Source: a virus. From it: a DNA stretch of 54,708 bases. Both the position numbers and the translations under genes were made by a program. The stretch spans positions 1 to 54,708 of IMG/VR virus record IMGVR_UViG_3300049489_000161. The stretch is one strand, 5' to 3'. Below are positions 29,310 through 49,803 of this stretch, piece after piece (position 1 is the first letter of the stretch; each line of letters opens with the position of its first letter). The notes under the pieces are model-generated. The model searched no databases, was not told the origin of the DNA, and saw only the letters and a program-made list of their open reading frames with translations.

Positions 29310-30674
29310 CTATCGCTTGGTCGTGGCGACATCGCCTGCCGACTGAACCGGCAGGCCGGTGTCGAGGTTGTTGGTCGCGTTGTACGGCGAGTGGAACCAC
29401 TCGGGAGTGGACTTGAGCGGGTCCGGGCCGGACAACGGGTAGGTCTCGGGGGAGACGCCCTTCTGCGCACGGGCCGCAGCGACCTGAGCAGCGACGAAGG
29501 TGAACGAATCGCCCACGACCTTGAGGTTGGTCACGGTGTCGGGGAGGAACAACGGCACCACGCCTTCCGAAAGCTGGTCGATGACCCACACGTCGTAGGA
29601 GAAGTCCTGCACGTACTCAGTGCCCTTGAACCGGGTGCCGCCGTCCTGCTCGCGCTTCTCGCTGAAGTGCTCGTAGGTCTGGATCGCGTTCTTGTACGCG
29701 GCCAGCGCGACGACCTGGCGCAGCGTGCGACCAGCGGTGGCGCTGGATGCCACCGGGTCCACGACCAGGTTCGAGTCGGTGTACACCTTCGGCAGGAACT
29801 CGGGGTGGATCTTCACGAGCTTCCAGGAACCCTTCAGGGTGCCGAGGTAGCCGGAAGCATTCGCCCCGGAGATGTCGCCGTCCTTGTACAGCTTGAACGC
29901 CGACTCGGTGCCGGCACCCTTCTCGATGAGCGCGTTGATGTACACGAGCTCGAGGGCGCTGGTGACAAGCAGGAACCGCTCGTTGTTGCCGAAGTTGCTG
30001 TCGAACCAGTTGTCGCTGAACAGCAGGGTCAGCGCATCCAGCGTCGACATCGGGTTCGCGTCATCGAGGAACATGCCCTTGATGGTGGCGAACGACGGCT
30101 GGATCTGGTTGTCGCTGTCCTCACCAGGCTCGGCCACCCACTTGTAGTCCGCGGCGTTGCCGGTGCAGGCGATGCGGTGGGCATCGGTGGTGACCGGAGG
30201 CGGCGTCTCGGTCGAGAGACGCGGGACCATCTTGCCGGTCATGTGGCCCTGGATCGCAGCGAGCAGGCAGTATTTGTCGTGGTCGCGCAGCACGGTGGTC
30301 TGCATCTTGCGGCCGGTGTACTCCTGCACGATGTTCTTGATCGGGCTGAAGCGCAGCTGCTCGTCGAACACGGTGAAGCCAAAGGAACGGTGCCGGCTCA
30401 TCGAGTAGGTGCGCCACTCGATCGGGGGGATGCCGTTCTTCCACTCGGCGGTGTACTCACTGCCCGAGTAGTGGTCGGCCCCGATCCGGCTGATGTCGGC
30501 GTCGACGATGTAGTCGTCCACGCGGATGTCGGGAACCCGGATGCTGCGAGCGTTCGGGTTCGGCTTGATCTCCGAGCCGGTGAACATTCCGGCGACCGGG
30601 CTGGTGATGCGAAGGTACGTGGCCAGCGCGACCTGGTAGTCGGTGAGGCTGTCCTTCTGGACTGGTGCGACCAT
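29310..30674 (-). CDS. Major capsid protein
   Basis: A 454-aa protein directly downstream of the portal gene, the usual place for the main head subunit. It has an extended N-terminal arm, a beta-rich E-loop-like region (SRIGADHYSGSEYTAEWKNG), a spine helix region (ALELVYINALIEKG), and a C-terminal domain with FVAAQVAAARAQKG. It fits an HK97-type fold in length and layout, though no family signature was searched. RBS AAGGGAG precedes the ATG. The short gene after it and a following hairpin suggest separately tuned, high expression. Confidence 0.82.
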   Translation of the reverse strand: MVAPVQKDSLTDYQVALATYLRITSPVAGMFTGSEIKPNPNARSIRVPDIRVDDYIVDADISRIGADHYSGSEYTAEWKNGIPPIEWRTYSMSRHRSFGFTVFDEQLRFSPIKNIVQEYTGRKMQTTVLRDHDKYCLLAAIQGHMTGKMVPRLSTETPPPVTTDAHRIACTGNAADYKWVAEPGEDSDNQIQPSFATIKGMFLDDANPMSTLDALTLLFSDNWFDSNFGNNERFLLVTSALELVYINALIEKGAGTESAFKLYKDGDISGANASGYLGTLKGSWKLVKIHPEFLPKVYTDSNLVVDPVASSATAGRTLRQVVALAAYKNAIQTYEHFSEKREQDGGTRFKGTEYVQDFSYDVWVIDQLSEGVVPLFLPDTVTNLKVVGDSFTFVAAQVAAARAQKGVSPETYPLSGPDPLKSTPEWFHSPYNATNNLDTGLPVQSAGDVATTKR

Positions 30675-30706: not shown

Positions 30707-32692
30707 TTAGGCGGGTGCTCTCATCACGTTAGAGGGTTGAGTAGAGGTAGTCGAATACCCCTGTTCCATTTCAGGATTCGTTCCAGTAGATGCAGGAGTT
30801 TGCATACCTAGCTGCTGCATGATGACTTCCTGGGTCTGCCGCAGCATGGTCATCTGTTCCTGCAACATGGTCAGGGCCGTCTCTGTCATCGCCACCATGT
30901 CGTCTGTACCGGCGACGTTGGCGTTCAAGTTCTCCTCGAGAACAGCAATGCGCTGATCCCGCTCGTCTACTGCTTCAACATTGCCACCCCACATCAGCCC
31001 GATGTCCTTGGCAGAGGCCGAGCCGGACAGTTCGATCTGCTTGCTGATGATGTACTGCATGGCCTTGGCCGCCTGCGAGAGCATCTGCTGATCCTGTGAG
31101 GACGCCATAGCCGGCATCGCCTGGGACAGCGGGACGAACAGTTCGTTGAGGATGCGCAGCTGCTTCTCGTCTTCCATCTCCACCAGAGAGCCGGGCACCA
31201 CGCGCACCCAGTATTCGGTGGCGAGGTCGGCAAAATCGATCTCGATGGTGCCGTCCTCTTCGATGTACTCCGTACCGAGCCCGGCCTTCAGCAATCTCAG
31301 CCGGGCCTCCGCCGACGGCTTGATGCGCTTCACGGCCTGCAACTCGGCGAAGTACACCGTCAGTGCGTACGAGCAGTAGTGGCTGAAGAACGACTCGATC
31401 GCCTTCTGGTAGTTGTTCGTGGTGATGTCCACCATCGCCTGCTGCGCCTCGACACCCTGTGGTGTGGCCGACATCCCGCTTCCGGCCTGTGTCGCCATCT
31501 GCTGGTCGGCAGACCCGATCAGGTTCACCATGCTGCCGAGGTTCTGCTGACTGATCGTGCCGTACTGCATCAGCGTCTGGGTGTTCACCTCGAACGCCTC
31601 GATGCGGGCGTTCGGGTTGGAGACCTCGGTGTACTTGCCGGGGCTGAGGTTTGGCAGCGCGTTGACCGCGCCGAAGCCCAGGATGCTCGGGTTGATGTTG
31701 CGGTACCAGAGCTTCATCGCGCCGTTCAGCATCAAGTCCTGGAAGTCCTGCCGGCCGATCAGCAGTTCCACCTGAGACTTGCCCAGCGGCTGCTGGCTGT
31801 CCTTCTCCAGCACCAGGAAGTGGACCGGGTGCTGCTTGAGCGGGTGCTTGTTCTTCTCGATCCGCAGCAGATGTTTGGTGTGAGGGGAGAAGGTGAGGAA
31901 CGGCTCGCCACTGGAGGAGTACCAGGTGATGATCTCGTAGCCCTCGGGGACCATGCCGAACTTCCGGGTCTGGTAGTCCACCGAATCCCTGGACCGGCCA
32001 TACGGCGCCTGCTGCAGCATCGACTTCAAAGCCGCGATGTCCCAGCCGATGGTCTGGTCCCGGATCAGCGCATGCACTTCCGCCCTGGTCAGATACCTAC
32101 GGACGAACACGTTCTGCGCCTGGCGGATGTCCCGCACCCCTGGATCGGGAAACACATCCCGGTAGTGGATGGCGTCGTACTTCATGTACCAGCCGCCGGC
32201 GGCGTCCTGCAACAGCGTGGGGATCACCACGTCAAACCCGAGGGTCAGCGCGGTCTTCACCGACGCGAACAGGTTCTGCTGCATGTCGTTGCTGTACTCG
32301 TCAGACCCGATGATCTTCGTGGTCAGGATGTGCTTGGCGAAGATCCCTGGCATCGAGTCGTCATCGAACTCAGAGATCACCTCCACGTTCGGAGTGTTCT
32401 GCACCAGATTGCGCGCTATGCGGCGAATGAGTCCGGCTGTCTCACCCGAGGAGATGTTTGGCAAATCAGGCTTCGGGCTGATGACAGACCCGTCCGCCAA
32501 CTTCTCCAGTTTGTCGTAGGTCGCCACCCGGCGATCCATCTCCGACTTGTATCTCATGTAGGTCGAGTACATGCCAGAGCCGTAGGCACCAATGCCTCGA
32601 ACGTCGAGACTCCCGTCTCGGGGATCCAGCCGGTACTCGTCGTACCAATCCTCGAAGGAAGTGATGGGTTGCATCCCCAGATCTACTGCCAC
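30707..32692 (-). CDS. Portal protein
   Basis: This 661-aa protein should form the dodecameric ring through which DNA enters and leaves the head. Features of podovirus portals are visible: a helical N-terminal region, a WYRNINPS segment and a stem/wing region, IQ- and Q-rich helices toward the C-terminus (LRQTQEVIMQQLGMQ), and a disordered polar tail. It begins at a GTG with GAGGAAGG upstream and overlaps the end of the giant gene by ten bases. It precedes the capsid gene. Length is usual for T7- or P22-like portals. Confidence 0.85.
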   Translation of the reverse strand: MAVDLGMQPITSFEDWYDEYRLDPRDGSLDVRGIGAYGSGMYSTYMRYKSEMDRRVATYDKLEKLADGSVISPKPDLPNISSGETAGLIRRIARNLVQNTPNVEVISEFDDDSMPGIFAKHILTTKIIGSDEYSNDMQQNLFASVKTALTLGFDVVIPTLLQDAAGGWYMKYDAIHYRDVFPDPGVRDIRQAQNVFVRRYLTRAEVHALIRDQTIGWDIAALKSMLQQAPYGRSRDSVDYQTRKFGMVPEGYEIITWYSSSGEPFLTFSPHTKHLLRIEKNKHPLKQHPVHFLVLEKDSQQPLGKSQVELLIGRQDFQDLMLNGAMKLWYRNINPSILGFGAVNALPNLSPGKYTEVSNPNARIEAFEVNTQTLMQYGTISQQNLGSMVNLIGSADQQMATQAGSGMSATPQGVEAQQAMVDITTNNYQKAIESFFSHYCSYALTVYFAELQAVKRIKPSAEARLRLLKAGLGTEYIEEDGTIEIDFADLATEYWVRVVPGSLVEMEDEKQLRILNELFVPLSQAMPAMASSQDQQMLSQAAKAMQYIISKQIELSGSASAKDIGLMWGGNVEAVDERDQRIAVLEENLNANVAGTDDMVAMTETALTMLQEQMTMLRQTQEVIMQQLGMQTPASTGTNPEMEQGYSTTSTQPSNVMRAPA

Positions 32693-35600
32693 TGCTTCAG
32701 CCTTCCTCGTTCGGATGAGACACGTTCTCGCCTGACGTCTGCCCGGCGAATCAACGGAGAGTTGGTGTTGATCATCGACACCGAATCGATCTGTGCGGCA
32801 CTCATCCCGGTGAAGAAGCTCATCCGCGTGATGTACGAGTTGGGTGTGAAGCCACCACCACCACCGCCGCCATAACCGCCACCACCCCTACGACTGTAGC
32901 CACCGTAGCTGCGGTATCCGCTAAACCGACCTCCACCGCTGATGGTGTCCTTGGGCGTGTAGGTCTTTTTCTTGATCTGTTCCAGGATCGAGTCGTTCGG
33001 AGTCACCTGGCCAGTCACCTGCGTCGGCTCCAACGAGGCGCGACCGGTGTTGAGGTTCTTCACATCGTCGACCGCGTTGCCGCGTTCATCGAGGCTCATC
33101 CCGTTGGCCGGCTTGATCATCCCGGCAGGGACCGGAAGCCCCAGCGCCTGGGCGATGGACTGACGTGGGAACGGCGTGGCCCACGGCCTACCGTCCGGCC
33201 CGATCACATACGTGGCGTTCAACTGGTTGTACTCCGCAGAAGGTTGCGAGGGGATCTGGTTGGAGTACAGGATCTCCCGCAGCCCTGGTGAACTCGGGTC
33301 AGTGCTGTCACCGAAGTAGTACCTGTTGGCCCGGAACTTGGCCGCGGTCTCCGTCATGCCACGGTTCACGCCGTCCTGCACGATCCGATCCAGGATGCGG
33401 GCCTGCAGCAGATCCCGCTGTTCCTGCGAGGCGTAGAACCCCTGGAACCCTGGATCGTCAAGCGTGACCAGTCCGGCCATGAGCGACTTGACCATCGCCT
33501 CCTGGCCTTCGATCGACAGCTCCTCCCGGCCATTCCTCGAGATCGAGGTGCCCATCATCATCGCGTCAGCCATCGCATCGGCTTCCGCTTCCAGCGATTC
33601 AGGAGAGGAGGAGACGCCAGCCGCGATGTCCCGCTGCTCCAACTGCGGGATCAGCGCGGCCTTCAGCCTGTCGAACTGTTGCAGCTGCTCCTTGTACAAC
33701 TTGCCTGACTGCGCATCGATGTCGCCCTGGTTCCACCAGACATCCGCGGCTTCCGCCTGCGTCTTCAGGATCGACCCGATGTCGTCCTGGGACAGCAGTC
33801 CCGAGCCTCCGGCACCGAAGAACCTGGCGTAGACCAGTGCCTCCAGCGTCGCGTTGTCCACCGCTTCGGTCGGGACGTTCTGCGTCTTGACGACCATGTT
33901 CTCCCGGGCGAAGGAGCTGGGCCCCGTGATCTGCCCGGTGAACAGCGACAGCAGCACGGCAGCCGTGGCGTTGTTCTCCGCGTACTGGTGCAGGTAGGCG
34001 TCCCCGCCGCTGCGGGTCATGTACGCCAGCCCGCTGACCGGCTCCATGACCGGCTTCCCGTCAGCCCCGATCACCGGCTCGCCGTTGTCGTCCAGCACCG
34101 GAACTTCCTTCTGGTACTGCTGCAGCGCGTCGGTCTGCTGGGGCAGGCTCGACCCCTGCTGCAGGTCCAGCGTTCCGCCGTCCTTCGGGTTGGTCATCGC
34201 CACCAGCCACGGGTTGCGGTCATACTTGTCGAACGCACTGCGAATGCCGTTGACGAACTGGTTCTCGATCAGCGCCTTCTCGTACATCCCGACAATGGAG
34301 ATACCCAGCAGTGTGGTGGTGCTCAATCGTTCAGGGGATTCCACCCGGGCATCCGCCTCCGCGGACTCCTGCAGCAGTTTCGCTGTGAGATCCGCATCGC
34401 GGTACAGACTGAGCACCGAGTTCGGGATCGCGGAGACCCCATCGAGGAACCCTTGCGAGATCAGTCGGATGTCGCCGGTCTCGAAGAACCGCACCACCCC
34501 CATCAGTGGGGAGGTGAACTGACGCAGCACCCAGTGCGGGACGATCGCGGCGCGGCCACTCTCGTCCTTCTTGAACAGCGTGCCGAGCATCGGGATGTCA
34601 TCCAAGAAGATGGCGTCCTGGTAGCGGAAGTCGTTGGCCGCCTTCTGCGGGTCGTAGACCAGCGGGATGTTGAGGTAGGTGGCCTGCCGGCGGCGGCGCT
34701 TCTCCTCCTCGTCCTCCCCACCGAAGCCCAGGATCTCGGCGCCCATCATGCCGAACGCGAACAGCCCGGCCTGCGTCACCATGCCGCGCACGAACAGCCG
34801 GGACAGATCCAGTGTCTCGATGACGTCGTTGAAGTCCATCGGCTTGAACTCCAGTGACGGGTCTTTGCTGCGGTTGCGCACAATCCACGACCGCCACGGG
34901 TTCTCGCGTCCAGACAACGTCATCGCCACCATCTGATCGACACCGGTCATGCCGGTCAGGTAGGTCAGTGCGTTGACGTTGAAGCGCGTGAACAGGAACG
35001 GGATCTTCAGCGCGTGCCCGATCCATGTGCCGAAGCCCTCCTGCGCACACAGCGTCTCGATCGGGCGCATGAACAGCTTGGCGGCCACCGTGTTCTTCTG
35101 CGAACGGATGTTGCCCACCGCGTTGATGCCCATCTGATGTGGGTTGGCCTTCTTGGTACTGAACTTCTTCTTCAGCCACAGCGGGTCTTTCTTCATCTCC
35201 GCGACCAAGGTCTCCACGCTGACCACGTTGTTCGGGGCCAGTTCGAGGTACTCGATAGCGGCGGCCAGGTAGCGAATCGCCACCGACTTCTGCGACTGCC
35301 CGATCGTCGGATCGCTCATCACGCGAGAGACGGTCGTAGCCGTACGCTCCAGTGTTCGGCTGACCTTCCCGCCACTTGGCACAGTCTGTCCCTCAGCGTT
35401 GACCGTGCCACCAGGCTCGAGCAGCCCGGACTTGTAGGTCATCTCACCGAAGATCTCCCCGATGAACTCGGTCGAGTCCCCGAGGATCGTCGCCAACTGG
35501 TCGAGCATCTTCAGCTGCTCCATCGAGAACTTCGGCTCGACCCCCAGCTTCGATCCAATCGCGGCCGTCGTCTTCCCGCCCCGGCCCAGGTTGTTGCCCG

Positions 35601-38600
35601 ACAAGATGTTGGTGACGTTCTCGATCTGGTTACGGAAGAACGACTCCCCCAACGCCGACACCCACAGCGCAGGGTTGAACAGCCGGGTCGTGAGCGACAG
35701 ATGCACCGCGCCGCGCAGGAACAGCGACGAGTCTCGCAGCGACTCCTGGTACTGCGCACCGTTCTTGGCGTAGTCCTTCACGGACTTCTTCTTCTGGGGG
35801 CGGGCCTTGTTGTTCTTCAGCCACGCCTTCTGGTACGCGATCCGGTCGCTCATCTCCGTGATCTTGATGCTGCGCAACTGGTTCGCCATGTACTCATCAC
35901 TCGGAAGCCCGGCCAGCAGGCTGTGGGTGATGCTCATCGACTCCAGGATCGCGGGGTCTTGCATCAGAACCCGTGCATCAGGATCGACCGACAGGTACGG
36001 ACGGTTGCCGTCGGCATCCATCATCTTCGCCACGATCTCCTGCTTCACGCTCAGGCTCATCGTGTTGAAGTTGGGGTTCGATCCCTGGTACGTCACCCAG
36101 AACCCGTCCAGCGGGGACAGGAACATCGCCATGAACTCTTGATGGGACTCCAGCATCTGCCCCATCAGGGTCTCCACCCAGGAGCCCCAGTCGTTCTCGA
36201 CATCCTCGAACTTGCCGCGCTTGATCTGCTTGGTGGGCGACCACACACCGGCCTCGAACACCTTCCGCCAGAACACCACATGCTCCAACGGCACCATCGC
36301 ACCGTGCAACGGGTGCAGCCGGTGCGGGCCGGTGATGTTCTGACGCATCGCGGACACGGCCTCGATGTACATCTTCGCCGTGACCTGCTCGGTGTAGTCC
36401 GTTTGATCGGTGCGAGGGCCCGGAGTGCCGTACCACTGGCGCACCAGGAAGTCGATCTCCGCCCACTCCCCGTGCGTCAGCCCCAGGTCATCCAGCAGCT
36501 TGTTCCGGAGAACGACGGCCTTCTGCCATTCCTGCCGTTCCTTCTCCGTGTCTCCGCGCTGGATGACGTGCAAGTACGACGTCATGTCCTTCGTCGTGGA
36601 ATCCAGCCGGACATGCTCCAACGGGGTCAGATGCTTGAACGGGGAGAAGGACGGGTCTTCCGGCATGATCCGGGACACCATGCGCCACACCGTGTCCGCG
36701 TCATCCTCGAAGAGACTGATGGTGTTCTCTCCGTCGATGATCTCCTGCTGAGTGGGGAGCACCCTACGTGCGCCCTTCTTGCCGACCTCCTGCTGCTTGA
36801 CCAGCACCCGGCCGCCGACCGCTCCGGCGGTGATCCGGGAGTTGAACGGGGAAACGTCACTCTCACGGGAGAACGACGAATACGCCGCCCCGATCGGGTT
36901 CTTGTCAGACGCCACCACGTTGTTCAGTTGCAGCGACATCGGCCGCAGCATCGTCTTCGGTTTCTGCGGAGCGCCGTTCTTGTCCGGCAGCTCCTGGTAC
37001 ATGCGGACCCAGAAGGTCAGGTCTCCGTCAAAGTAGTGCTCCGGGACCACACGACCGTCGGGAAGCGTGATCTGGGGGAAAACCGCGTTCGCCTTGTCGA
37101 GGAGGTACTGGCGCATCTCCGGCCGACGCGGGTCGTTCAGCAACTGCGACAGGATCGCCGGCATGAACCCGACCATCGCCTCCCGGTTCGAGTCCGGCAC
37201 CGTCAGGAACCCCGGCAGCGACAACACCATGTCCGGGGTGACCCCCGGTGCGGCCAGTGCCGCCAGGACCGCGACGGCGATGTTGTCGATCGCGGAACTG
37301 CGGTTCGTGTCCAAGGCGATGCCGAGGGGCTGTACCGCGCCCGGCATCACCGACGCGAACAACTCGTTCAGTTCAGCGGCGAACGTCGTGAGCAGCCGTT
37401 CCTGATCCATCAACTGCAGGATCTGTGAACTGGTCAGCCCGTGGTTCATCTTGGACCAGCCATCGAGAAGCATCCGGAGCAGTTCTCTGCGCTCCGCGTC
37501 CGTACCCACCACGCCGGCAGGGACCAGGACATCCAGCAACTCGTTCTCGATGTCCCACCCGGTGACGGCGAACATGTTGCGGAACGTGTGGGATACGCCC
37601 CGGACACTGCCCTTGCTGGCGATGCCCTCCGTCGACGTGTACGACGCGATTCCGCGCGTGTTGCCTGCGATCGTCGACAGGTTGGACGTATAGCCCGTCT
37701 TCGGGTCCATGAACGAGATCGTGGTCTTGTTGCCAGTGCCCTCGGCGTGCAGCTTCAACGCCGCATCCTCGGTGACCAGGCCCACCAGTTCAAGCTTGCG
37801 GCGGTCCCGATCGACCTCCTCCACCTCCAACGGGGGTGGCACGGTCCAGTTCGCCTCCACATCCGCGGGACCGAACGCGACCCGCAGTTTCGGGAACGGC
37901 GTACCGTCAACGTCCTCCTGGTCCTGCCACTGCTGACGCAGGTTCTTGATGTGCTCCTCTTTCTCAGGGAGCTTGAACCCGATCCGCTGCAGCAGCACGT
38001 TGCCGTCACCGGCCACGCGGATGTACAGGTCACCAGCCATCACGGTGCTGCCCGGCTCGAAGACCTCCTTGCCCAGTTTCAGTGCGTCGAAGAAGTCCTT
38101 CAGCGCCTGCTCCGGCGGTTTCACCCCAACCTTGGTGGTGCCGTCAGGGTTCTGCTTGAAGAACGGGATCGAGTCCTTGTACTCGTTCCCGTACTTCTTG
38201 TCAGTCATCTGCCTCAGCAGCTGCTTGAAGCCGGGGCTGTTCGGATCTCCGTCGTCCGTCATGGCGAGCAGTTGCTTGGCGATCCGGTTGAACTGCGCCG
38301 TCTCACCCGTGCCCTTCTGGGGCGGGCCAAACAGCAGCAGATCGTTGGTGCCCGGCACAGAGACCGAGTAGTTCTTCGGCACCAGCAGCATGCTGAACCG
38401 GCGCCACTCCTTGGCCCGTGCCGGATCGATGACGCGGTTGCCCTCGGTGAGTTCGGAGAGCCAGTCCACCCATGCGTTCAGCTCGAAGTTGTCAGCGCGC
38501 TGCGGAGAGGTCTCCACCAGCGTCGACTCAAGCGCCTGCACCGTCTCGTTGACGTAGTCCTCGTCCTCGGTAGACGGCACGAAGAACTGCCCGGCATTGC

Positions 38601-41600
38601 CGAGATCCTTGTACCCGAGACCGCCCTCGAGCATCGCGCGGCTCAAGGACTGGCGCAGCAGCGTCGTCTTCGTGTTGCTGGCGAGCACGACGATCACACC
38701 TCGACGGGCGTACTCCTCCACCACCTTGGTGCCGACCTCGACCGCCTTGGTGTGCATCCCCCCGGCGTAATTGAGCAGCGACTGCAGATCGATGACCACA
38801 CCATCGCCGTAGGTCGGCGGGAACTTCATCCCGCTGAACCCGTCCTCCACCTGCTTGGCGGCCACCAGATGCCCGACGTTGCTGGTCTTCGACGCGGCCT
38901 GCTCATGCACAAACAGGATCCCCGAGCCGGCCATCAGCTTCTCCAGCGACTTCGCGTAGTGCGAGTTCAACAGATCGTTGACGACGTCCTGCGTCATGGT
39001 CTCCGGCAGCCCGAGGTACTTCAGCTTGCCGCCCAACTGCTCGGCCTGCACCATGTTCAGCAGCTGCTTCTTGTTGTCCTCGTTCTGGTCGTTGATCGCG
39101 CGCCGGCTCTCAAACCGGCGTTCGTCCTGCGCGGCCTGCTGACCCTGCCACTCCTGCAACCGCAGTTGCCGCAGTGTACGGATGTCCGTGCGCTCATCGG
39201 AGGCGATCAGGCGTGCCTTGGAAACGGGGGCCACCTTGCCGAGCACGGTGTTCCCCAGTTCCTCCAGCGTCACTTCCTCGCCAAGATCCCCCAGACCCAG
39301 CCGCTCCAGCCGTTCCTGGCTGTACTGCGGGGTGCTGTACATCTCAATGATGTCCACGTACGTCTTGTCCGTGCCGTACCCGGCCCGGCCCAGAATCCTC
39401 TGGGTGACTTTTTCGCTGTTCGCCACGAACTTCGGCGGGTCGCCAGCTTTGTCCAGACTCTCCAGGGGCATCGTGCCGCCCTGGGATTCGTACGCGATCC
39501 ACTTCTCCGCCGGCCAGACCTCCTTGAGACCTGTCGACGGGTTCCGCCCCATTACGACGTGGCGGGACTTGACGTACTTGTAGAGCGCGGTCAGGTCGTC
39601 CACCTGCAACCGGCCATGCGGGAACATCGCGGTGGCGAGCGCCATCGTCTTGCGTTCCAACATCTCCGTGAGCGTGGCCGAGTTCTCCTCGAAGTCCTTC
39701 GTGCGTCGCAACGCGCTGGTCCGGAACGCCCGGAACGACTGGCCCTGCTTCGTGATCGCGTCCAGCGGGATCTGCAACCCCGTGCCGAACACACCGCTGA
39801 CCGCGTACAGCATCGATGCGATCAGGCCGACCTCGCTGCGTCCTGCCGACGCCCGGCCCACGCCGTCGAAGTACACGTTGTTCGCGTACTCCGGGCCCGG
39901 CGGCTTCTTGTTGACGTCCACATAGGTGATCGAGATCGTGGCACCGGTGGCCGGGATCAGCTGCGGGTTCTTCGTCAGGTACTTGAGCAGCACGTCCAGG
40001 TTCAGCGACTTCAGAGGGGACGAGCGCGTGTTCTCGTCGAGCATGATCGTGTCGCCCACAATGTCGCGCAGTGGCACGGGCACGCCCGTGTCCGCCGGAG
40101 TGATGTTCACCTCCCACACCGCGTGGTTGTGGATGCGCAGGTACGCCTCTCGATCCAGGTAGTCCTGCAGATCAAGCGAGGTGTTCGGGTCCAGCACAAA
40201 CTCACGGGTGGTGGTGTGCGCCGCCAGGTCCACATCCTCCGAGGTGGCGAACCCTGTGGCGATCCACACATCCATCTCGTCGTTCGTGACGCCCTCCATC
40301 TGCACGGCCGCCTCCACCGAGGCCCCGTCCAGCAGCTTCCGCGCCTTCGCCAGGTGCATCGGGATGCGGTCGTGCCACTGCCCGAGCCTGTTCTGGGGGT
40401 ACAACTCGGTGAGGATCTGCTCCGCGGCCTCGTCCATGCGAGTCATGCGGGGGTCGAGCGTCGTGGCAGCGATCGCTTCGACGGCATCCAGCACCCGCGG
40501 GTGGAACAGCGGGTCGGACAGCGACGCCCAGGACGTGTCGTACAGCTTCCGCACGTCGTCGACGTTCTTGCCGAGGATGATCGGCAGCACCCGGGTGTCG
40601 TCGGACGACCGGACAGACCGTTCACTGATCGTCAACGTGGCACAGAACTCCCCGAGCTGATCCCACTGCTCGGGAGTCAGCACGTCCGCCGTCTGCTCGC
40701 TGAACACACGCGAGTCGTTGTTCGTCCACACCAACTCCCGGAACTTCGCCAGCAGCTGGTAGATGTTCTGCTCGGTGCCGGGGGTCGTATCGATCTTCGC
40801 CTTGTAGCCGGCGAACTTGTTGATCCGCTCCTGCGTACCGAGGAACTGGACGATCGCCGTCTTCTTCACGAAGTCGAACTTCTTGTCGTCGGCGGAACGA
40901 CCGTGGCTGAGTTGGAACGTCTTTAGGACGGAGGCGTACTCCATGCGGGACCGGAACGCCAGCAGATCCGACAGGTCAGCATTCTTCGCGTGGTCGATCC
41001 CGTCCTGCGCCTCCTGCATCCGGCGTTCCAGCTCCGCCCGCACCACCGGATCGGTGGCCGACTTCAACTGGATCCGGGCTTCCTCGAACCGGTCAACGGC
41101 GGCCAGGCCCATGAGGTCGCGCACCGTGTCCTCGTGGAGCTGCTTCTCCGCGTCCGACATCGGAGCGATGTACTCGAGGTACGCCGTGTCGTCGCCCCAG
41201 AACCGCTTCTGCAGTTCCGCTGAGATCAACTGCTGCAAGTCTGGCAGAGAGGCCTTCTGCACGTTCGCCAACGACTTCAGTACTCGGTAGACGCCGATCA
41301 CCAGCTTGTCCCGCACCTGCTGGAGACTCTGCTCGGTGACACTCTCGGCGGTCGTGTAGGCCACGATGAACGAGTCAATCATGTTGGAGATCGGGAAGAA
41401 CCCGTCCTCCCACGCCTCAGCGGTGCCCTCCTCCACGGCGGCGTTGCGGATGAACGCCTCGACCATGCTGATGTAGCGGTACGCCCGGCGCAGCTCCGGC
41501 TCGTCCGCTGTCGGGTTGAACAGCGAGGCGAACGAGGTGTCCTGCAGCAGATGTCCGATGTTGGAGGTCTGCACACCGTTCGAGTAGGTCTGCACCGTAC

Positions 41601-44600
41601 CCACCGGGTTCACGTCCCGCATCGTCGGGAACAGCACCAGCTTGGCGAACTCCTGCGTGCGAGGATCATGCAGCATCTGCAGCGCCGTCTCCTCGTCGGA
41701 CATGTCCAACTCGACCAGGCGGCCATTCTCCAACTGGATGCGCACCGGGCCCTTCGCCAGCTTCGACAGGTTCGTCGCCACCTGATCCCAGGACAGCGTC
41801 GTCAGCGCCGCGGACTCCGCCCGCAACGCATTGCCGAACCCCCACATGTCGGCCATCGTGATCGCCTCACCCATCGGGCGGGTCAGATCAGGCGGCAGCC
41901 CCTTGTCGTGGGCACGGAAGAACATGTCGTACATCGCCGTGTACAACTGCTGCATCGCGTTCGGGCCGACACCATCAGGGAACGCCTGGGCATTGCGGAT
42001 TGCCCGGCGCAGGAACCCCAGCATCTCGGCGGAGTTCGTGTCCTTGCCGGTGTTCTGCACCTCGGCGCGGATCTCCTCCACCGTCTGCCGCTGACTCACC
42101 GGCTTCTTGTTGTTCTCCGCGATACGTGCGGCGATCTCGTCTTTCTGCCACGCCAGCTCCTCCTGCATCGCTGTCGTGATCCGGGCGTTCGAGTCGCTGT
42201 CCGCCTTGCGCTGCACAAGAGCCTTCGACATCGGCTCGGCCATCTGGGAGAAGTCGGCGATCGCATCCAGCACCTGCTGCTGGCTGTTCCCCGCGCCCCA
42301 CTGGTTGCGGGCATTCACCTCGTAACCGGCTTTGTCGTCATCGAACGGCAGCAGTTCCGGGCGTCCGGCCAGCCACACCGGGTTGGCGTTGATCTGCGTG
42401 TACAACTCCTCGATGCTCTGCGCCCTGGCGACCGCCTCCCAGAACAACTGCCGCTGCCGGCCGCCGTCCTCGAGCGTGTTCAGGATGTACGCCGTCTGCA
42501 GGAACCGGGACTGGATCTGATCCCAGCGCACCACCCCCTCGACACCGTCCTCCAGCTTGTCCTTCGTCGGAGTGTTCGCCATCACGTTCCACTCGGCGAT
42601 CAACGTGTTGACGTGCCAGATCAGCGCAGCCTTCTTCGGATCGGTCTCGGTGAGCGCCTGCTCCACCCAGTCCCGCATGTGGACCTCGCCGCCCACCACC
42701 TCGACGACGCCCAGGGCGGCGCCGTTCGGGATCATCGCGGCGATCTTGCGGGCAACCCGCTCGTCCCCGGTGCGCAGCATGTCGTTCAGCACGGCCCGGC
42801 GGTCGGAGGCATCCAGCGACGGATACAGCATGGCCCAGGCGTCGATCATCTCCGACAGATCCTTCAGCCCGTTCTCGAACTGGCGCCGGGCCTTGTCGGA
42901 ACGGTCCTGCCGCTTCTTCTGCTCCGCCGATGTGCTGGTACCCAGCGCGTCGATCAGCATCGTGTAGGAGTTCATCTGCAGCGCGCCGTCCGGCCCGGTC
43001 TGCGTCAGCACGTCCGCGCCCCACGGAGGGTTGCCGATCCCATGTTTCTTCGAGTAGTCGGCCGCCCGCCTCAACATCGCCATGAACGCGGCGCGGTCCT
43101 TCTCGTTCTTCGACAGGGACAGCTCCATCAACTGCCGCAGCGTCACATGCGGGCCGATGTACATCGAGGCCTTGCCCAGCAGCTCGTACAGCGACGTGTC
43201 GGAGAACACCTCCATCATCGCCAGCGCCGCCGTGTTCGAGTTGCCGCCCTGCTTGGCGTTGTTGCGGGTCAGCGGGCGCAGCGTCTGGATCTTCTTCATG
43301 ATCGGAGAGTCCGGATCGGCACCCTCCTGCATCTCGAGCTCGACGTCGAGGCTCTTGCCGAGCAGCATCTGCAGCATCGACACCTGCTCGCCCGGCACGA
43401 TGCCGAACACCCCGCCGTCCTTCACCACCGCCGGCACCCGCATGTTGGCGACGTACAGCAGCAGCTCCGTCTCCGACAGGTTCGGGAACTTGCCGGCGAT
43501 CCCCTCCGAGGCGATGATCTGCTTCAGCCAGTAGACCGTGCGCTCCTGGATCCGGTCGCGGCCCAGCATGCCCTCGCTGTCCGACTGCGTCTTGCCGGCA
43601 CCCAGCTTCGCGTACAGCTCCACCAGCTTCGCCTGGCCTGCGACCGCGTCCGCCATCTGATCGGCGTCCATCGCGCCCAGCACGGTCGCCGAGTTGTACA
43701 GCGCCGAGTAGTGGAGGAACTGCTCGGGGCGGGTCTGCGCCGCCGATCCCAGCATCATCAACGCATCACCATGCGTCTTCGCCATCCACCGTGCCACTCG
43801 CTTCAGCACCGAACTGGGTGCAGGAACCGCGGGCTTCAGCGGGTTCACGATGACGTCCTCACGGTTGACGTCGCGCCAGTAGGCGAACTCCTGCTGGATC
43901 GCGTCGAACTCCACCGAGATCATGTTCCAGATCTGCAGCGCCTCCGGGCGGCCCGTGCTGTCACCCATCGCCAGCAGCGCCTCCCCGCCAAGGTCGTACA
44001 TCCCCTTCACCAAGATCGTGCGGGCGTCCGTGACATTTGCCAGGACGTTCGCCTGGAACTGCTTGAGCAGCGCCCGGAACTCCTTGGCCGGCTGCAGCAC
44101 CCTGCCGTACCGCTGCTCCAGCCGGGCGCTCAACCGCAGCAGTCCCAGCACCACCTTGTCGTGCAGGTCGGAAGGGTTCAGCGGATCGGAGAACGCCTCA
44201 ATGTAGATGGCCTCCGCATCCGGCACCCCGATGTTGATCTCCCACCCGGTGTCCGATCCCACCACGGTGCCCTGGTCATCCACCCAGGTCGTGTTCCGCT
44301 GTGCGTACTGGTTGCCGCGCCGGATGTTCGCCAGCTGCTCCGGCGGCTCGTAGGTACTGGCGATCTCCACCGCGTTGTCACCGTCGTGATCGCCGTTCAA
44401 CGTCTTCAGCACGGACTCGTCGAAGCTCATCGTGCCGTGGATGTCGGCCGCCGACATCACCAGCGACACCTGCGGCACGAACACCGCGAACGATCCCTGC
44501 CCAGTCAACGGGTTGCGGACCATCTTCAGCTCGACGACCTTGCGCATCGCCTCCGCCATCGAGTCCGTCACCGGCACCAGGTTGCCCGTCGCCGGGTCTT

Positions 44601-47337
44601 TCACCTTGAACTTCTTCTCGAACACCCAGTTCAGCTTCTCGTTGAACACCCGGGTCGCCTCGGTCTTGGCGGCCGTATCGTCGAACGAGATCTGGACGTA
44701 CTTCAAGTACAGGTCGTACAGCAGCCCCGGCTTCTGCCGGGTGCCCACCAGCATCTCGGCGGCCTGTACCGTCTCCGCCAGATCCGCGATCGTGTCGTTC
44801 GCCACCCGGATGTTGTCCTGCGCCTGCGCCGCAGCATCCGTATCCCCGGCGGCCTGCGCCGCGGCCAGCTCCTGGGTGTACGTGTCGAGCAACTGCTGCG
44901 CACGTTCGCGCTGTGTCTGCAGACCATCGACGTTGGTCAGCAGGTTCTCCATCACGGATTCCATCGACATCACCGCAGCGTTCACCGCGAACTCGTTGCC
45001 GTCGACACGACCGTCCTCGAGCACCACCCGTGAGGAGGACCGGCCTGTCAGCAGCGAAGACTTGCCACCGATCGAGTCCTTCTTGCGGGTGTCCGCCGCC
45101 ACCGCGTTCTGCCGCAGCAGATCCTGGATCTCACGCGCCACCGGGGAGTCGAACGAGGCCATCTTCTGGCCCTCGTTCAGCATGTTCATCAACGCCCGGA
45201 CCTCGGCGTCCTCCTTCGGGGTGGCGATCGCCAGCTTCTCGATCTCCGACTTCGTCATCCCCGAGGTGATCTGCTTCCACTCCTGCTCGGTCGGGGGATT
45301 CCCGGACATCCGCATCGCGTACAGCAACCGGGCCCGGTTGTTCACCACCTGATCGGAGGTGGCCCGCTTGTTCAGCGTGCCCAGCCCCATGCCCATGCCG
45401 CCGGCGAACCCGTACGCTGCGGCCCACGCCATCTGCGCCGGATCGAGATCCTCGCTCAGACTCATCGGCTCGAACGCCGCCTGGATGAACTCCTCACCAC
45501 CTTCGGCATACCCGGTGATCAGCGCGTCCCGGAACCGGGAACCCTGCCGAGTCATCCCAACCGCCGCGTTGTAGTAGTCGTCCATGAACGAAGCCGTGCC
45601 GTCATCCAGCATCCGGGCCTGCCGCGCCAGATAACTAGTCGGCACCATCCGCAGGAACTCGCTCGGCGCGGCCAACTGCAACGTCGGGGAGATCTTCACG
45701 ATGTTGCCGTCAGCATCCCGGCGGAACCGCATCCCGTTCAACACCTCGTCGTCGGCACGGGAGGCCAGCCAATCCCTGGTACGAGTCGGCAGCACGGCGT
45801 CCGCCACCTTGGTGGTGACCCTCTCCTGCACGTCCCGCAACGTGGTGTACTGCAACGGCTTGTCCGTCACTTTCCCGAGGATCTTCGGGGCGGCAGCCGT
45901 GGCCAGGTCATCCGCGCTCTGCCCCGGCGTGGTTCTCGCGGTGGCGGTCGCGGCACTGGCCCGGGACGCCTGCGCCGCCCGTCCGATCGCGCCGGCCATT
46001 CCCACCTGCAGCGCATCGATCGTCGTCTTGCCGATCGCGCCGACCCACTCCTGACGGGTCGTGTAGGGGTCGAAATCCCCGCGGGCCTCGTTCCATCCCT
46101 CACCGACGACCAGCTGACCCACCCCGCCGATCGTCATCGCACTCATCGTGCCCATGTACATCGCACGGCCCGCCGGGTTGGAGAACTGCATCACGCCATC
46201 GGCCAGCGCCGCCCCGACATCCAGCACCTGGACCCAGCCCGGAGCCTTGCGCGACCCATCCGGGTTGGTGTCGTAGAACGCCACCGTGTTGTCACCGATG
46301 TCGCCGAACCCCACCTCCGACATACCGTGGCTCAGGTTCTGCGTCACGTTCATCAACTTCGTGCCGACCTGCGCATACTGTTGCAGCCACGTCCCGGCGC
46401 CGCCGAACAACTGGTCCGTACCCTCATACCGGGCATTCGCGCGACTGGCGATCACACTGGCACGGGCCGCCGTCTCCACCAGCTCGTCCTGGTTCAAGTA
46501 CCCGGCCACCGTGCCCAGGCCGAACCCGATCACACCACCGATCGCCGCTCCGACCGGGCCGCCGATACTGCCGAACGCGGCACCCTGCGCCGCTGTGGTG
46601 AGACCGGCACCGGCGATCAGCGCATTGTTCTGCCACCCCTCGAACCGATTCTCCGTCGCCTCGAGATCGTCCTTGTACTGCTCGGCCTGTGGCGCGTACA
46701 ACGCCTGCTCCGACCGCTCGCTGCGTTTCGCGTTCACCGCCAGGGACAACGCCTCAGGGTTCGAGCGCAACGCCTCGAACTCCCGGCCCTTCTCCTCCCG
46801 GGTCATCACGAAGTCCGACATCATCGTGTCGGCCGTCTTCGCGTCGAACGTGTCGTAGACGTTCCCCTGCTTCTGGCCGTTGACGAAGATGTCCCCGAAC
46901 CGCAGATCCTTCTTCTCGTCGTCCCACGTCACGACACCCGTGGCCTTGTAGCCCTCGGTGTCGGCGCCCGGATCGAACTGGGAGAAGAACACACTGGCCC
47001 GATCCTCATCGAACGCCTTCTGCTGCCAGACGTTCGACTGCTTGATCATCTGGTTGTAGAAGTCGGTGTTCCACCCGTTCTCCGTGCCACCGGCATTCGC
47101 CCCCGTGTACCACTGCGGGGCGACCTCCATCATCGAATCCTGAGGAGCCCACGGCTGAAGACCCTTCCGGCCCTGGTCGATCCACAGATCCTGGTCGCGG
47201 GCGAACCGCTCGGACGCCTGCGCCATCCCCAACGGCGCGGCAGGACTGTCAGCCTGCTTCTTGAACTGGGACTGACCACCCTTGAAATCGACCACGACGT
47301 GACGCCCCTTCGATGACCGCTGCTCTTGGGCCACCAT
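32683..47337 (-). CDS. Giant 4884-aa protein with RNA polymerase beta-prime-like DxDGD site; probable injected virion protein
   Basis: One uninterrupted frame of 14,655 bases, over a quarter of the window, probably the first gene of the late transcript. Residues 239-281 form a glycine-zipper, membrane-active-looking segment (GGPVGAAIGGVIGFGLGTVA). G758-K759...T764-G-R766-S and R941-N-P943, followed by N981-G-D983-H-D-G-D987, match in order the beta-prime subunit elements GKR..SGRS, NRAP and NADFDGD that hold the catalytic magnesium. Between them a coiled-coil-like insert (about 800-870) is extra. Long helical regions follow. The C-terminal part contains FFETGDIRLISQGFLDG, similar to large polyvalent phage proteins. 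The last 60 residues are glycine/tyrosine-rich. I infer a virion protein ejected with DNA that may transcribe early genes. The paired lysine-bearing barrel was not found. An alternative GTG start at 47295 has AAGGGG upstream. Confidence 0.8.
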   Translation of the reverse strand: MVAQEQRSSKGRHVVVDFKGGQSQFKKQADSPAAPLGMAQASERFARDQDLWIDQGRKGLQPWAPQDSMMEVAPQWYTGANAGGTENGWNTDFYNQMIKQSNVWQQKAFDEDRASVFFSQFDPGADTEGYKATGVVTWDDEKKDLRFGDIFVNGQKQGNVYDTFDAKTADTMMSDFVMTREEKGREFEALRSNPEALSLAVNAKRSERSEQALYAPQAEQYKDDLEATENRFEGWQNNALIAGAGLTTAAQGAAFGSIGGPVGAAIGGVIGFGLGTVAGYLNQDELVETAARASVIASRANARYEGTDQLFGGAGTWLQQYAQVGTKLMNVTQNLSHGMSEVGFGDIGDNTVAFYDTNPDGSRKAPGWVQVLDVGAALADGVMQFSNPAGRAMYMGTMSAMTIGGVGQLVVGEGWNEARGDFDPYTTRQEWVGAIGKTTIDALQVGMAGAIGRAAQASRASAATATARTTPGQSADDLATAAAPKILGKVTDKPLQYTTLRDVQERVTTKVADAVLPTRTRDWLASRADDEVLNGMRFRRDADGNIVKISPTLQLAAPSEFLRMVPTSYLARQARMLDDGTASFMDDYYNAAVGMTRQGSRFRDALITGYAEGGEEFIQAAFEPMSLSEDLDPAQMAWAAAYGFAGGMGMGLGTLNKRATSDQVVNNRARLLYAMRMSGNPPTEQEWKQITSGMTKSEIEKLAIATPKEDAEVRALMNMLNEGQKMASFDSPVAREIQDLLRQNAVAADTRKKDSIGGKSSLLTGRSSSRVVLEDGRVDGNEFAVNAAVMSMESVMENLLTNVDGLQTQRERAQQLLDTYTQELAAAQAAGDTDAAAQAQDNIRVANDTIADLAETVQAAEMLVGTRQKPGLLYDLYLKYVQISFDDTAAKTEATRVFNEKLNWVFEKKFKVKDPATGNLVPVTDSMAEAMRKVVELKMVRNPLTGQGSFAVFVPQVSLVMSAADIHGTMSFDESVLKTLNGDHDGDNAVEIASTYEPPEQLANIRRGNQYAQRNTTWVDDQGTVVGSDTGWEINIGVPDAEAIYIEAFSDPLNPSDLHDKVVLGLLRLSARLEQRYGRVLQPAKEFRALLKQFQANVLANVTDARTILVKGMYDLGGEALLAMGDSTGRPEALQIWNMISVEFDAIQQEFAYWRDVNREDVIVNPLKPAVPAPSSVLKRVARWMAKTHGDALMMLGSAAQTRPEQFLHYSALYNSATVLGAMDADQMADAVAGQAKLVELYAKLGAGKTQSDSEGMLGRDRIQERTVYWLKQIIASEGIAGKFPNLSETELLLYVANMRVPAVVKDGGVFGIVPGEQVSMLQMLLGKSLDVELEMQEGADPDSPIMKKIQTLRPLTRNNAKQGGNSNTAALAMMEVFSDTSLYELLGKASMYIGPHVTLRQLMELSLSKNEKDRAAFMAMLRRAADYSKKHGIGNPPWGADVLTQTGPDGALQMNSYTMLIDALGTSTSAEQKKRQDRSDKARRQFENGLKDLSEMIDAWAMLYPSLDASDRRAVLNDMLRTGDERVARKIAAMIPNGAALGVVEVVGGEVHMRDWVEQALTETDPKKAALIWHVNTLIAEWNVMANTPTKDKLEDGVEGVVRWDQIQSRFLQTAYILNTLEDGGRQRQLFWEAVARAQSIEELYTQINANPVWLAGRPELLPFDDDKAGYEVNARNQWGAGNSQQQVLDAIADFSQMAEPMSKALVQRKADSDSNARITTAMQEELAWQKDEIAARIAENNKKPVSQRQTVEEIRAEVQNTGKDTNSAEMLGFLRRAIRNAQAFPDGVGPNAMQQLYTAMYDMFFRAHDKGLPPDLTRPMGEAITMADMWGFGNALRAESAALTTLSWDQVATNLSKLAKGPVRIQLENGRLVELDMSDEETALQMLHDPRTQEFAKLVLFPTMRDVNPVGTVQTYSNGVQTSNIGHLLQDTSFASLFNPTADEPELRRAYRYISMVEAFIRNAAVEEGTAEAWEDGFFPISNMIDSFIVAYTTAESVTEQSLQQVRDKLVIGVYRVLKSLANVQKASLPDLQQLISAELQKRFWGDDTAYLEYIAPMSDAEKQLHEDTVRDLMGLAAVDRFEEARIQLKSATDPVVRAELERRMQEAQDGIDHAKNADLSDLLAFRSRMEYASVLKTFQLSHGRSADDKKFDFVKKTAIVQFLGTQERINKFAGYKAKIDTTPGTEQNIYQLLAKFRELVWTNNDSRVFSEQTADVLTPEQWDQLGEFCATLTISERSVRSSDDTRVLPIILGKNVDDVRKLYDTSWASLSDPLFHPRVLDAVEAIAATTLDPRMTRMDEAAEQILTELYPQNRLGQWHDRIPMHLAKARKLLDGASVEAAVQMEGVTNDEMDVWIATGFATSEDVDLAAHTTTREFVLDPNTSLDLQDYLDREAYLRIHNHAVWEVNITPADTGVPVPLRDIVGDTIMLDENTRSSPLKSLNLDVLLKYLTKNPQLIPATGATISITYVDVNKKPPGPEYANNVYFDGVGRASAGRSEVGLIASMLYAVSGVFGTGLQIPLDAITKQGQSFRAFRTSALRRTKDFEENSATLTEMLERKTMALATAMFPHGRLQVDDLTALYKYVKSRHVVMGRNPSTGLKEVWPAEKWIAYESQGGTMPLESLDKAGDPPKFVANSEKVTQRILGRAGYGTDKTYVDIIEMYSTPQYSQERLERLGLGDLGEEVTLEELGNTVLGKVAPVSKARLIASDERTDIRTLRQLRLQEWQGQQAAQDERRFESRRAINDQNEDNKKQLLNMVQAEQLGGKLKYLGLPETMTQDVVNDLLNSHYAKSLEKLMAGSGILFVHEQAASKTSNVGHLVAAKQVEDGFSGMKFPPTYGDGVVIDLQSLLNYAGGMHTKAVEVGTKVVEEYARRGVIVVLASNTKTTLLRQSLSRAMLEGGLGYKDLGNAGQFFVPSTEDEDYVNETVQALESTLVETSPQRADNFELNAWVDWLSELTEGNRVIDPARAKEWRRFSMLLVPKNYSVSVPGTNDLLLFGPPQKGTGETAQFNRIAKQLLAMTDDGDPNSPGFKQLLRQMTDKKYGNEYKDSIPFFKQNPDGTTKVGVKPPEQALKDFFDALKLGKEVFEPGSTVMAGDLYIRVAGDGNVLLQRIGFKLPEKEEHIKNLRQQWQDQEDVDGTPFPKLRVAFGPADVEANWTVPPPLEVEEVDRDRRKLELVGLVTEDAALKLHAEGTGNKTTISFMDPKTGYTSNLSTIAGNTRGIASYTSTEGIASKGSVRGVSHTFRNMFAVTGWDIENELLDVLVPAGVVGTDAERRELLRMLLDGWSKMNHGLTSSQILQLMDQERLLTTFAAELNELFASVMPGAVQPLGIALDTNRSSAIDNIAVAVLAALAAPGVTPDMVLSLPGFLTVPDSNREAMVGFMPAILSQLLNDPRRPEMRQYLLDKANAVFPQITLPDGRVVPEHYFDGDLTFWVRMYQELPDKNGAPQKPKTMLRPMSLQLNNVVASDKNPIGAAYSSFSRESDVSPFNSRITAGAVGGRVLVKQQEVGKKGARRVLPTQQEIIDGENTISLFEDDADTVWRMVSRIMPEDPSFSPFKHLTPLEHVRLDSTTKDMTSYLHVIQRGDTEKERQEWQKAVVLRNKLLDDLGLTHGEWAEIDFLVRQWYGTPGPRTDQTDYTEQVTAKMYIEAVSAMRQNITGPHRLHPLHGAMVPLEHVVFWRKVFEAGVWSPTKQIKRGKFEDVENDWGSWVETLMGQMLESHQEFMAMFLSPLDGFWVTYQGSNPNFNTMSLSVKQEIVAKMMDADGNRPYLSVDPDARVLMQDPAILESMSITHSLLAGLPSDEYMANQLRSIKITEMSDRIAYQKAWLKNNKARPQKKKSVKDYAKNGAQYQESLRDSSLFLRGAVHLSLTTRLFNPALWVSALGESFFRNQIENVTNILSGNNLGRGGKTTAAIGSKLGVEPKFSMEQLKMLDQLATILGDSTEFIGEIFGEMTYKSGLLEPGGTVNAEGQTVPSGGKVSRTLERTATTVSRVMSDPTIGQSQKSVAIRYLAAAIEYLELAPNNVVSVETLVAEMKKDPLWLKKKFSTKKANPHQMGINAVGNIRSQKNTVAAKLFMRPIETLCAQEGFGTWIGHALKIPFLFTRFNVNALTYLTGMTGVDQMVAMTLSGRENPWRSWIVRNRSKDPSLEFKPMDFNDVIETLDLSRLFVRGMVTQAGLFAFGMMGAEILGFGGEDEEEKRRRRQATYLNIPLVYDPQKAANDFRYQDAIFLDDIPMLGTLFKKDESGRAAIVPHWVLRQFTSPLMGVVRFFETGDIRLISQGFLDGVSAIPNSVLSLYRDADLTAKLLQESAEADARVESPERLSTTTLLGISIVGMYEKALIENQFVNGIRSAFDKYDRNPWLVAMTNPKDGGTLDLQQGSSLPQQTDALQQYQKEVPVLDDNGEPVIGADGKPVMEPVSGLAYMTRSGGDAYLHQYAENNATAAVLLSLFTGQITGPSSFARENMVVKTQNVPTEAVDNATLEALVYARFFGAGGSGLLSQDDIGSILKTQAEAADVWWNQGDIDAQSGKLYKEQLQQFDRLKAALIPQLEQRDIAAGVSSSPESLEAEADAMADAMMMGTSISRNGREELSIEGQEAMVKSLMAGLVTLDDPGFQGFYASQEQRDLLQARILDRIVQDGVNRGMTETAAKFRANRYYFGDSTDPSSPGLREILYSNQIPSQPSAEYNQLNATYVIGPDGRPWATPFPRQSIAQALGLPVPAGMIKPANGMSLDERGNAVDDVKNLNTGRASLEPTQVTGQVTPNDSILEQIKKKTYTPKDTISGGGRFSGYRSYGGYSRRGGGGYGGGGGGGFTPNSYITRMSFFTGMSAAQIDSVSMINTNSPLIRRADVRRERVSSERGRLKQWQ

Positions 47338-48327: not shown

Positions 48328-48383
48328 TGTAGACACCCCTCACTGTCTACAGGGTGTCTACATCCGGCACCGAGGTGTCTACA
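48328..48383. repeat. Four TGTAGACA/TGTCTACA iterons flanking the element
   Basis: TGTAGACA at 48328-48335, then TGTCTACA at 48344-48351, 48355-48362 and 48376-48383. These exact 8-bp copies sit upstream of the larger element, bringing the total here to seven within 206 bases. Tight, directional clustering suggests cooperative protein binding. Confidence 0.8.
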
Positions 48384-48443
48384 TTCAGCCCAGATGCCTG
48401 GTTTTCTCGCACGTTAGTACGAAAACCCGGCCCTTTGGTGGTA

Positions 48444-48533
48444 TGTAGACACATGTAGACAACGAAAAAAACCCCTTTAAGGAAAGTGTATATATATAAA
48501 GGGGGTCAACTTTTTGTGACTACGGTGTCTACA
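48444..48533 (+). repeat. ~90-bp inverted iteron element, copy 2
   Basis: TGTAGACA at 48444-48451 and 48454-48461 (one helical turn apart) face TGTCTACA at 48526-48533. Inside are CGAAAAAA, a CCCCTTTA/TAAAGGGG inverted pair and TATATATA. It aligns along its length with the reverse complement of 13501-13591. In each case the same end points at the next downstream gene on that strand, which suits a promoter-like or operator role. Origin function is also possible. Confidence 0.8.
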
Positions 48534-48626
48534 CCCCAGTCCCAGCGCCCCAGCGTCGGGTGACACTCCTGATTCCGGGCGACGACATGGCTCCACTTCA
48601 GTGCGGATCTCACTCCTAATCACCTC

Positions 48627-49410: not shown

Positions 49411-49420
49411 CCTCAACGAC

Positions 49421-49443
49421 CTGAGCATGTCGTGAAACTGCTC
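49421..49443 (+). repeat. Duplicated hairpin motif, left copy
   Basis: A 23-base sequence beginning CTGAGCATG and ending GAAACTGCTC occurs here and, with one base changed, at 49781-49803, exactly 360 bases away. Each copy folds as a GAGCA/TGCTC stem with the loop TG(T/A)CGTGAAAC. Confidence 0.85.
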
Positions 49444-49780
49444 CCTCACTACGGCCGAGGCACCCGGCTAGTGGGTAGAACAGAGTGCCTGGGCTGCGGT
49501 CCAACGGAGGTACCTCGTAAGAGCGTGAGCAGCACCGCAGTGCGTGGCTCACACACAAGTTTCCCTGGGTAGCTCCCGGGGATGGCGTGGCTGAATAACT
49601 CCTGTGGTTCCGGGAGTAAAGCAGCGCATGGGTCACGACAAGCGGGATCTCGGGCAGAGATCCTGCGCTGTGGAGGCACAGCTCAGTGACTGTCTTACCG
49701 GACAACATGTGAGTCAACGGCGACATCCGACAACCAAGGAGCCCGCTGTTGTATGAGAGTGGTACCTCATCGCCAACGTC

Positions 49781-49803
49781 CTGAGCATGACGTGAAACTG
49801 CTC
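49781..49803 (+). repeat. Duplicated hairpin motif, right copy
   Basis: Right copy of the 23-base hairpin motif, with TGAGCA/TGCTCA pairing extended by one base. It lies just before the hairpin at 49813 and the gene at 49876. Confidence 0.85.

Follow-up and report, generated by a model that had tools for sequence, protein, structure and literature searches.

A precedent for a giant virion protein that includes an RNA polymerase comes from the Thermus phage P23-45. Its gp96 is a tape measure protein of 5,002 residues with an N-terminal two-barrel virion RNA polymerase (vRNAP) (PMC10770324). In the single-chain enzymes with solved structures, the lysine-bearing barrel (DPBB-B) precedes the aspartate-bearing barrel (DPBB-A) (PMC10770324). 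The Microbacterium phage Burro and other members of cluster EK carry a gene of more than 13 kb, which is among the largest in viruses and whose role is unclear (PMC7302621). Its product, Burro gp27 and relatives, has no similarity to the vRNAP of phage N4, and a band of ~250 kDa from Burro virions is presumed to be this product or a processed part of it (PMC7302621). The protein was still called one of unknown function in papers of 2021 and 2026 (PMC8281081; PMC13069448). No report tying it to RNA polymerase was found in the literature searched, which was mostly open-access. The related phages are podoviruses with tails of <10 to ~14 nm (PMC8281081, PMC13069448). According to the present analysis, both halves of an RNA polymerase active site of the cellular type appear to be present in the giant protein of these actinobacterial short-tailed phages, widely separated and with their order reversed.

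The giant gene and its neighbourhood

The stretch of DNA that was analysed, called the window here, is a virus record of 54,708 bases. It contains a giant gene followed directly by the portal gene (Table 1). The encoded protein is 24% identical to Burro gp27 over most of its length. Compared with the capsid protein, for which the identity is 80%, the giant gene thus changes far faster than its neighbours. At E ≤ 1, a Pfam search with the giant protein of the window had no match, and scanning viral sequences with this one protein gave nothing either. Relatives emerged only by tblastn with residues 601-1200, which matched Microbacterium phages and one Arthrobacter phage exclusively. These include the 13-kb genes of the Microbacterium podophages Burro, Akoni and TinyTimothy. 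In every annotated relative examined, the match falls in the giant gene, which encodes 4,434-4,494 aa and directly precedes the portal gene. IMG/VR scans yielded ~30 further genomes with relatives, many of them near 54 kb. Two contigs from bacterial bins labelled Propionibacteriaceae or Propionibacterium (L056 and L057) also carry relatives, which hints at other actinobacterial hosts or at binned phage contigs.

Table 1. Coordinates of features in the window and of a hairpin-like element in related sequences (L numbers).
Feature	Position	Strand	Basis
Capsid gene	29310..30674	-	80% identity to Burro gp29, proposed capsid protein (PMC7302621)
Portal gene, directly downstream of the giant gene; same neighbour in all relatives examined	30707..32692	-	58% identity to annotated Burro portal
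Giant protein gene	32683..47337	-	single open frame without stop, 4,884 aa, 538.7 kDa
DPBB-B candidate, beta-like barrel, residues 3100-3262	37552..38040	-	alignment, hhalign best place, AF2, Foldseek top match RNAP beta (weak E)
K3242, proposed counterpart of beta R1106	37612..37614	-	invariant 29/29; hhalign aligns it with R of PSRM
K3204, proposed counterpart of beta K1073	37726..37728	-	invariant 29/29
K3195, proposed counterpart of E. coli beta K1065	37753..37755	-	invariant 29/29; register from hhalign
Predicted DPBB-A, beta-prime-like barrel region, residues ~756-1000, long helical insert ~790-865	44338..45072	-	AF2 strands; hhalign to beta-prime at 936-1007
D983-H-D985-G-D987, proposed Mg2+-binding catalytic loop	44377..44391	-	invariant 28/28
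R941-x-P943.....S949, in register with bacterial beta-prime RAPTLHRLS	44491..44517	-	invariant 28/28; aligned by hhalign and hmmsearch
Glycine-rich hydrophobic stretch, residues 233-279; possible membrane or channel segment	46501..46641	-	PHROG 18476, E 1.4e-5; PHROG 6056 'internal virion protein', E 0.026
CCATG-NGAGA-CATGG sites	L001:18083; L002:16487-16783; L005:10167-10395; L006:10193-10504; L008:5542-5916; L009:6101-6424; L018:289 and 471; L022:3496 and 3712; L027:6496		

Three GenBank records (L003, L004 and L007) name the giant protein of relatives 'tape measure'. This label looks wrong, as the phages of this group are described as podoviruses whose tails measure less than ~15 nm (PMC8281081, PMC13069448). 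A length that scales with a long tail, as is typical of tape measures, is not found in these short-tailed relatives.

The gap beside the giant gene contains repeated elements. A hairpin-like sequence, CCATG-NGAGA-CATGG, occurs in 1-5 copies per genome among the relatives (Table 1). Where the phages are annotated, every close copy is located in a gap of ~0.9 kb on the left side of the giant gene, upstream of the genes that run leftward. Its five inner base pairs are nearly constant, and the outer ones show weak covariation. This element is a candidate for a vRNAP promoter, an origin or a packaging site. It is absent from the window and the covariation of its stem is not clearly above that of shuffles, and a promoter role was not adopted. 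In the window, TGTCTACA recurs about seven times, in either orientation (48328-48540), in the gap adjoining the giant gene and beside an AT-rich stretch. These copies are a lineage-specific counterpart of the repeats in the relatives' gap. Further along, two 30-nt repeats (49414-49443 and 49774-49803) are 93% alike, and their two differences keep a possible ACG[A/T]C...G[T/A]CGT stem paired.

The beta-prime-like region, a putative DPBB-A

A sequence-only reading of the window had pointed to a beta-prime-like signature in the giant protein, DHDGD at residues 983-987 with R941-N-P943 upstream. Both motifs are present, and L-N-G directly precedes the first. In 28 aligned sequences that are only 17-32% identical, R941, P943, S949, D983, D985, G986, D987, R1006 and G1008 are invariant. 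The pattern RxP.....S[FYW] preceding DxDGD is kept in 28/28, and DxDGD is kept by every relative examined. Aspartates that vary among homologues, which would have spoken against the beta-prime-like reading, were thus not found. The DHDGD letters by themselves prove nothing, since DxDGD arose in 216 of 2000 shuffles of the giant protein (11%). None of the 2000 contained the combined pattern, R.P.....S[F..] and then D.DGD with the correct spacing. The likeness of GGKSS...TGRSS (757-769) to GKR..SGRS of beta-prime, drawn in the same reading, has to be given up as support because even the nearest relatives do not keep these letters. The stretch falls where the model described below places the first strand of the barrel.

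Profile searches relate this region to RNA polymerases. When an HMM of the 28 phage rows was searched against 177,635 PDB sequences, the top three matches were beta-prime chains of the non-virion RNA polymerases (nvRNAP) of phiKZ and of AR9/PBS2 type (E 0.004-0.005), whose RNP..GS and DFDGD align with the phage motifs. RPA1 came next. Six members matched PHROG 2987 'RNA polymerase beta subunit' (best E 4.4e-5) and the window protein matched PHROG 2986, an RNA polymerase family (E 0.015). PHROG 2206 'virion RNA polymerase' was weakly matched by one member (E 1.8e-5), somewhere along its giant protein. Aligned by hhalign to 15 actinobacterial beta-prime sequences, the region gave P 1.5e-5 and a probability of 80%. 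The bacterial beta-prime profile, scanned against the full family profile of 4,884 columns, found its best place at 936-1007 with a score of 38.8. Shuffling of columns (25 shuffles) gave a mean of 17.3 (sd 2.2, maximum 22.9) and the reversed profile 18.2.

The first AlphaFold2 (AF2) model comprises residues 438-1637 and was built from 28 rows. It has a mean pLDDT of 69.5 and a pTM of 0.42 and is mostly helical. Model residues 350-600 are mostly at 70-94, with strands around the motif. The strands assigned to DPBB-A are E323-329, E350-353, E500-504, E514-520, E532-536 and E551-554 (model numbering; +437 for the protein). A conserved helical region (1040-1210) follows, on the side of DPBB-A where two-barrel RNA polymerases have their bridge helix and trigger loop. 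Foldseek placed a beta-prime chain first in the PDB, and several beta-prime and QDE-1 chains are among the top 20, with E-values of 0.1 and above. In a viral library, the giant proteins of Burro and Truong came first; weaker matches were a Pithovirus RNA polymerase (rank 6) and an RNA polymerase subunit of a crAss-like phage (rank 25). For this model and the second one described below, every E-value against the PDB is >0.001 and TM-scores are low, in part because the models include much other material. A double-psi barrel is thus partly supported: the DPBB-A region is modelled at about 85 pLDDT, but the Foldseek E-values are weak. The beta-prime-like reading of 936-1007 is supported by invariance, the PDB profile search, the PHROG families and hhalign with its shuffles, and weakly by the fold search. 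As judged from alignment and model, the protein contains a putative DPBB-A with the DxDxD Mg2+ loop that characterizes two-barrel RNA polymerases.

A candidate for the partner barrel

The lysine barrel had not been located in the sequence-only reading. A position just before DPBB-A, as in other single-chain enzymes, was rejected: residues 438-757 are modelled as helical apart from three short low-confidence strands, with no barrel. A candidate now exists ~2,200 residues downstream, at 3100-3262, with weak E-values for its fold. Only four lysines (1812, 3195, 3204 and 3242) are invariant in the full alignment of 29 sequences and 4,884 columns, and the last three all lie within this strand-rich region. 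When hhalign was run without bias along the entire protein, the bacterial beta profile found its best place at 3195-3266 (score 24.6). There, K3195, K3204 and K3242 fall on the K, K and R positions of beta, which are K1065, K1073 and R1106 in E. coli numbering. The first two are 9 residues apart in the window and 8 in the EK1 phages, as in E. coli. Compact members read GDK..LEWNGMKY.L..........LP.HG....W.ID......SKE, and the bacterial counterpart is GDKLAGRHGNKGVIS......MP..DGTPVDI.LNPLGVPSRMN. The scan score exceeds the shuffle maximum only modestly (25 shuffles: mean 18.3, sd 2.1, maximum 22.9; reversed profile 13.0). With residues 3170-3264 alone, hhalign gave 20.6, compared with a maximum of 20.8 in 60 shuffles.

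The second AF2 model (residues 2880-3400) has a pLDDT of 77.8 and a pTM of 0.66. K3195 and K3204 lie in a stretch of lower confidence (blocks of ~60-70 pLDDT). Foldseek against the PDB returned RNAP beta chains at ranks 1, 3, 9, 18 and 23, with E-values of 0.4 and above. Searches of the PDB, Pfam and PHROGs with HMMs of the DPBB-B alignment gave no significant match. This last result would be expected if 3100-3262 were an unrelated lysine-bearing domain and the partner barrel lay elsewhere, in unmodelled parts or in another virion protein. Such an arrangement is rather unlikely, given that the unbiased scan of all 4,884 columns selects 3195-3266, that the region holds three of the only four lysines kept by all sequences and that the best PDB fold match of the model is a beta chain. 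Alignment and model indicate that residues 3100-3262 are likely the beta-like partner barrel.

DPBB-A might also be the only genuine barrel, a decayed or re-used RNA polymerase fragment that now serves a structural purpose, e.g. as ejection tunnel or scaffold, without catalysis. The weaker evidence for DPBB-B and the largely helical nature of the giant protein fit this explanation. The three aspartates, the arginine and the three lysines, on the other hand, never vary in sequences that otherwise share only 17-32% identity. A decayed site would have lost these residues, and the explanation is considered improbable.

Proposed function and comparison with known systems

The giant protein is probably a two-barrel (beta/beta-prime type) virion RNA polymerase within a large ejection protein. 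DPBB-A (~756-1000) would provide the three aspartates that hold Mg2+ and, in addition, an arginine corresponding to beta-prime R425. From DPBB-B (~3100-3262) would come lysine counterparts of beta K1065 and K1073 and, in the place of beta R1106, another basic residue. The barrels, ~2,200 residues apart, would meet as one active site, either within one chain or as two large cleaved pieces. Carried in the virion and ejected with the DNA, the protein would transcribe the first phage genes. The present data show residue conservation, a relation of both segments to RNA polymerase at the sequence and profile level and a common gene neighbourhood in the relatives examined; virion association is published for Burro (PMC7302621). 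That the barrels pair and are catalytic, and that the protein is ejected and transcribes early genes, is inferred. An ejected early transcriptase is the best reading because of the virion location in Burro, the neighbouring portal gene, the glycine-rich N-terminal segment and the precedents of P23-45, crAss-like phages and N4, and because no other RNA polymerase was found in the scanned ORFs. The scan covered 20 other ORFs of the window; the annotations of Burro and Akoni list no other RNA polymerase either.

It is fairly probable that the barrels are reversed in one giant virion polypeptide, DPBB-A first and DPBB-B ~2,200 residues on, perhaps cut into two pieces of close to 250 kDa, one functioning as a beta-prime subunit and the other as a beta subunit. 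The Burro giant protein has a predicted mass of 488 kDa, and a band at ~250 kDa would be compatible with a cut in the virion.

Another two-barrel enzyme, e.g. a primase or a PolD-like DNA polymerase, could be built from the same elements, as PolD has the same two-barrel core (PMC4996933, PMC6355029). This is quite improbable: the ORF scan found that the phage encodes its own DNA polymerase and primase, the nearest profile matches are RNA polymerases and the gene is located among virion genes, adjoining the portal gene. The frequency of DxDGD in shuffles and the GenBank labels might point to a tape-measure or ejection protein that is unrelated to RNA polymerase and has the motif by chance. This is hardly credible in view of the invariance, the profile matches and the shuffled hhalign controls, and a tape measure of 4,500 aa would be superfluous in podoviruses whose tails are shorter than ~15 nm (PMC8281081, PMC13069448).

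The gene of more than 13 kb makes up about a quarter of the genome in these actinobacterial podophages and has been reported as virion-associated, with unknown function, since 2020. A role as virion RNA polymerase, if true, would account for it. The phages would then represent a third lineage of giant virion two-barrel RNA polymerases besides the crAss-like and P23-45 phages, one with Gram-positive hosts. The reversed order of the barrels, if true, would mean that permutation is compatible with the universal transcription core, a point of relevance to the evolution of the cellular enzyme. Cultured Microbacterium phages make the virion RNA polymerase reading directly testable.

Among known systems, the jumbo-phage nvRNAPs (phiKZ gp055, AR9/PBS2; PDB 7ogp, 7s01) provide the best PDB sequence match of the DPBB-A profile, their beta-prime motif being in register. 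They consist of separate subunits, are absent from the virion and belong to jumbo phages. YonO of SPbeta is a single-chain two-barrel RNA polymerase with DxDGD, a likeness taken solely from the description in the sequence-only reading, but is about 100 kDa, prophage-expressed and has its barrels close together (PMC5467207). In its giant size (~3,500 aa), its place in the virion and its ejection by a podovirus, the N4 vRNAP (Schitoviridae) resembles the enzyme proposed here, but it has the T7-like single-subunit fold (PMC12633501). The Pfam search of the window protein (E ≤ 1) yielded no family of that kind. The vRNAP of crAss-like phages (phi14:2 gp66 and relatives) is, as proposed here for the giant protein, a very large single-chain two-barrel virion enzyme of a short-tailed phage, with R-x-P and DxDxD; its motif is DFDID and its order is B then A. 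tblastn from the window matched only Microbacterium and Arthrobacter phages and no crAss-like sequence. P23-45 gp96 shares the giant virion protein and the DPBB-A loop, with FRNPVMGHGG...DFDGD compared with VRNPLTGQGS...DHDGD in the window. A direct hhalign comparison with gp96 as a single sequence gave a match (probability 3.8%, P 0.011) too weak to be used as support. Both barrels of gp96 lie within 327-1124, B then A, in a siphovirus, whereas in these podoviruses DPBB-A comes first and the candidate DPBB-B ~2,200 residues later. The compact B-then-A order of gp96, gp66, QDE-1 and YonO is thus not found in the giant protein. By analogy, the best reading is that it would work like P23-45 gp96 and the crAss-like vRNAP.
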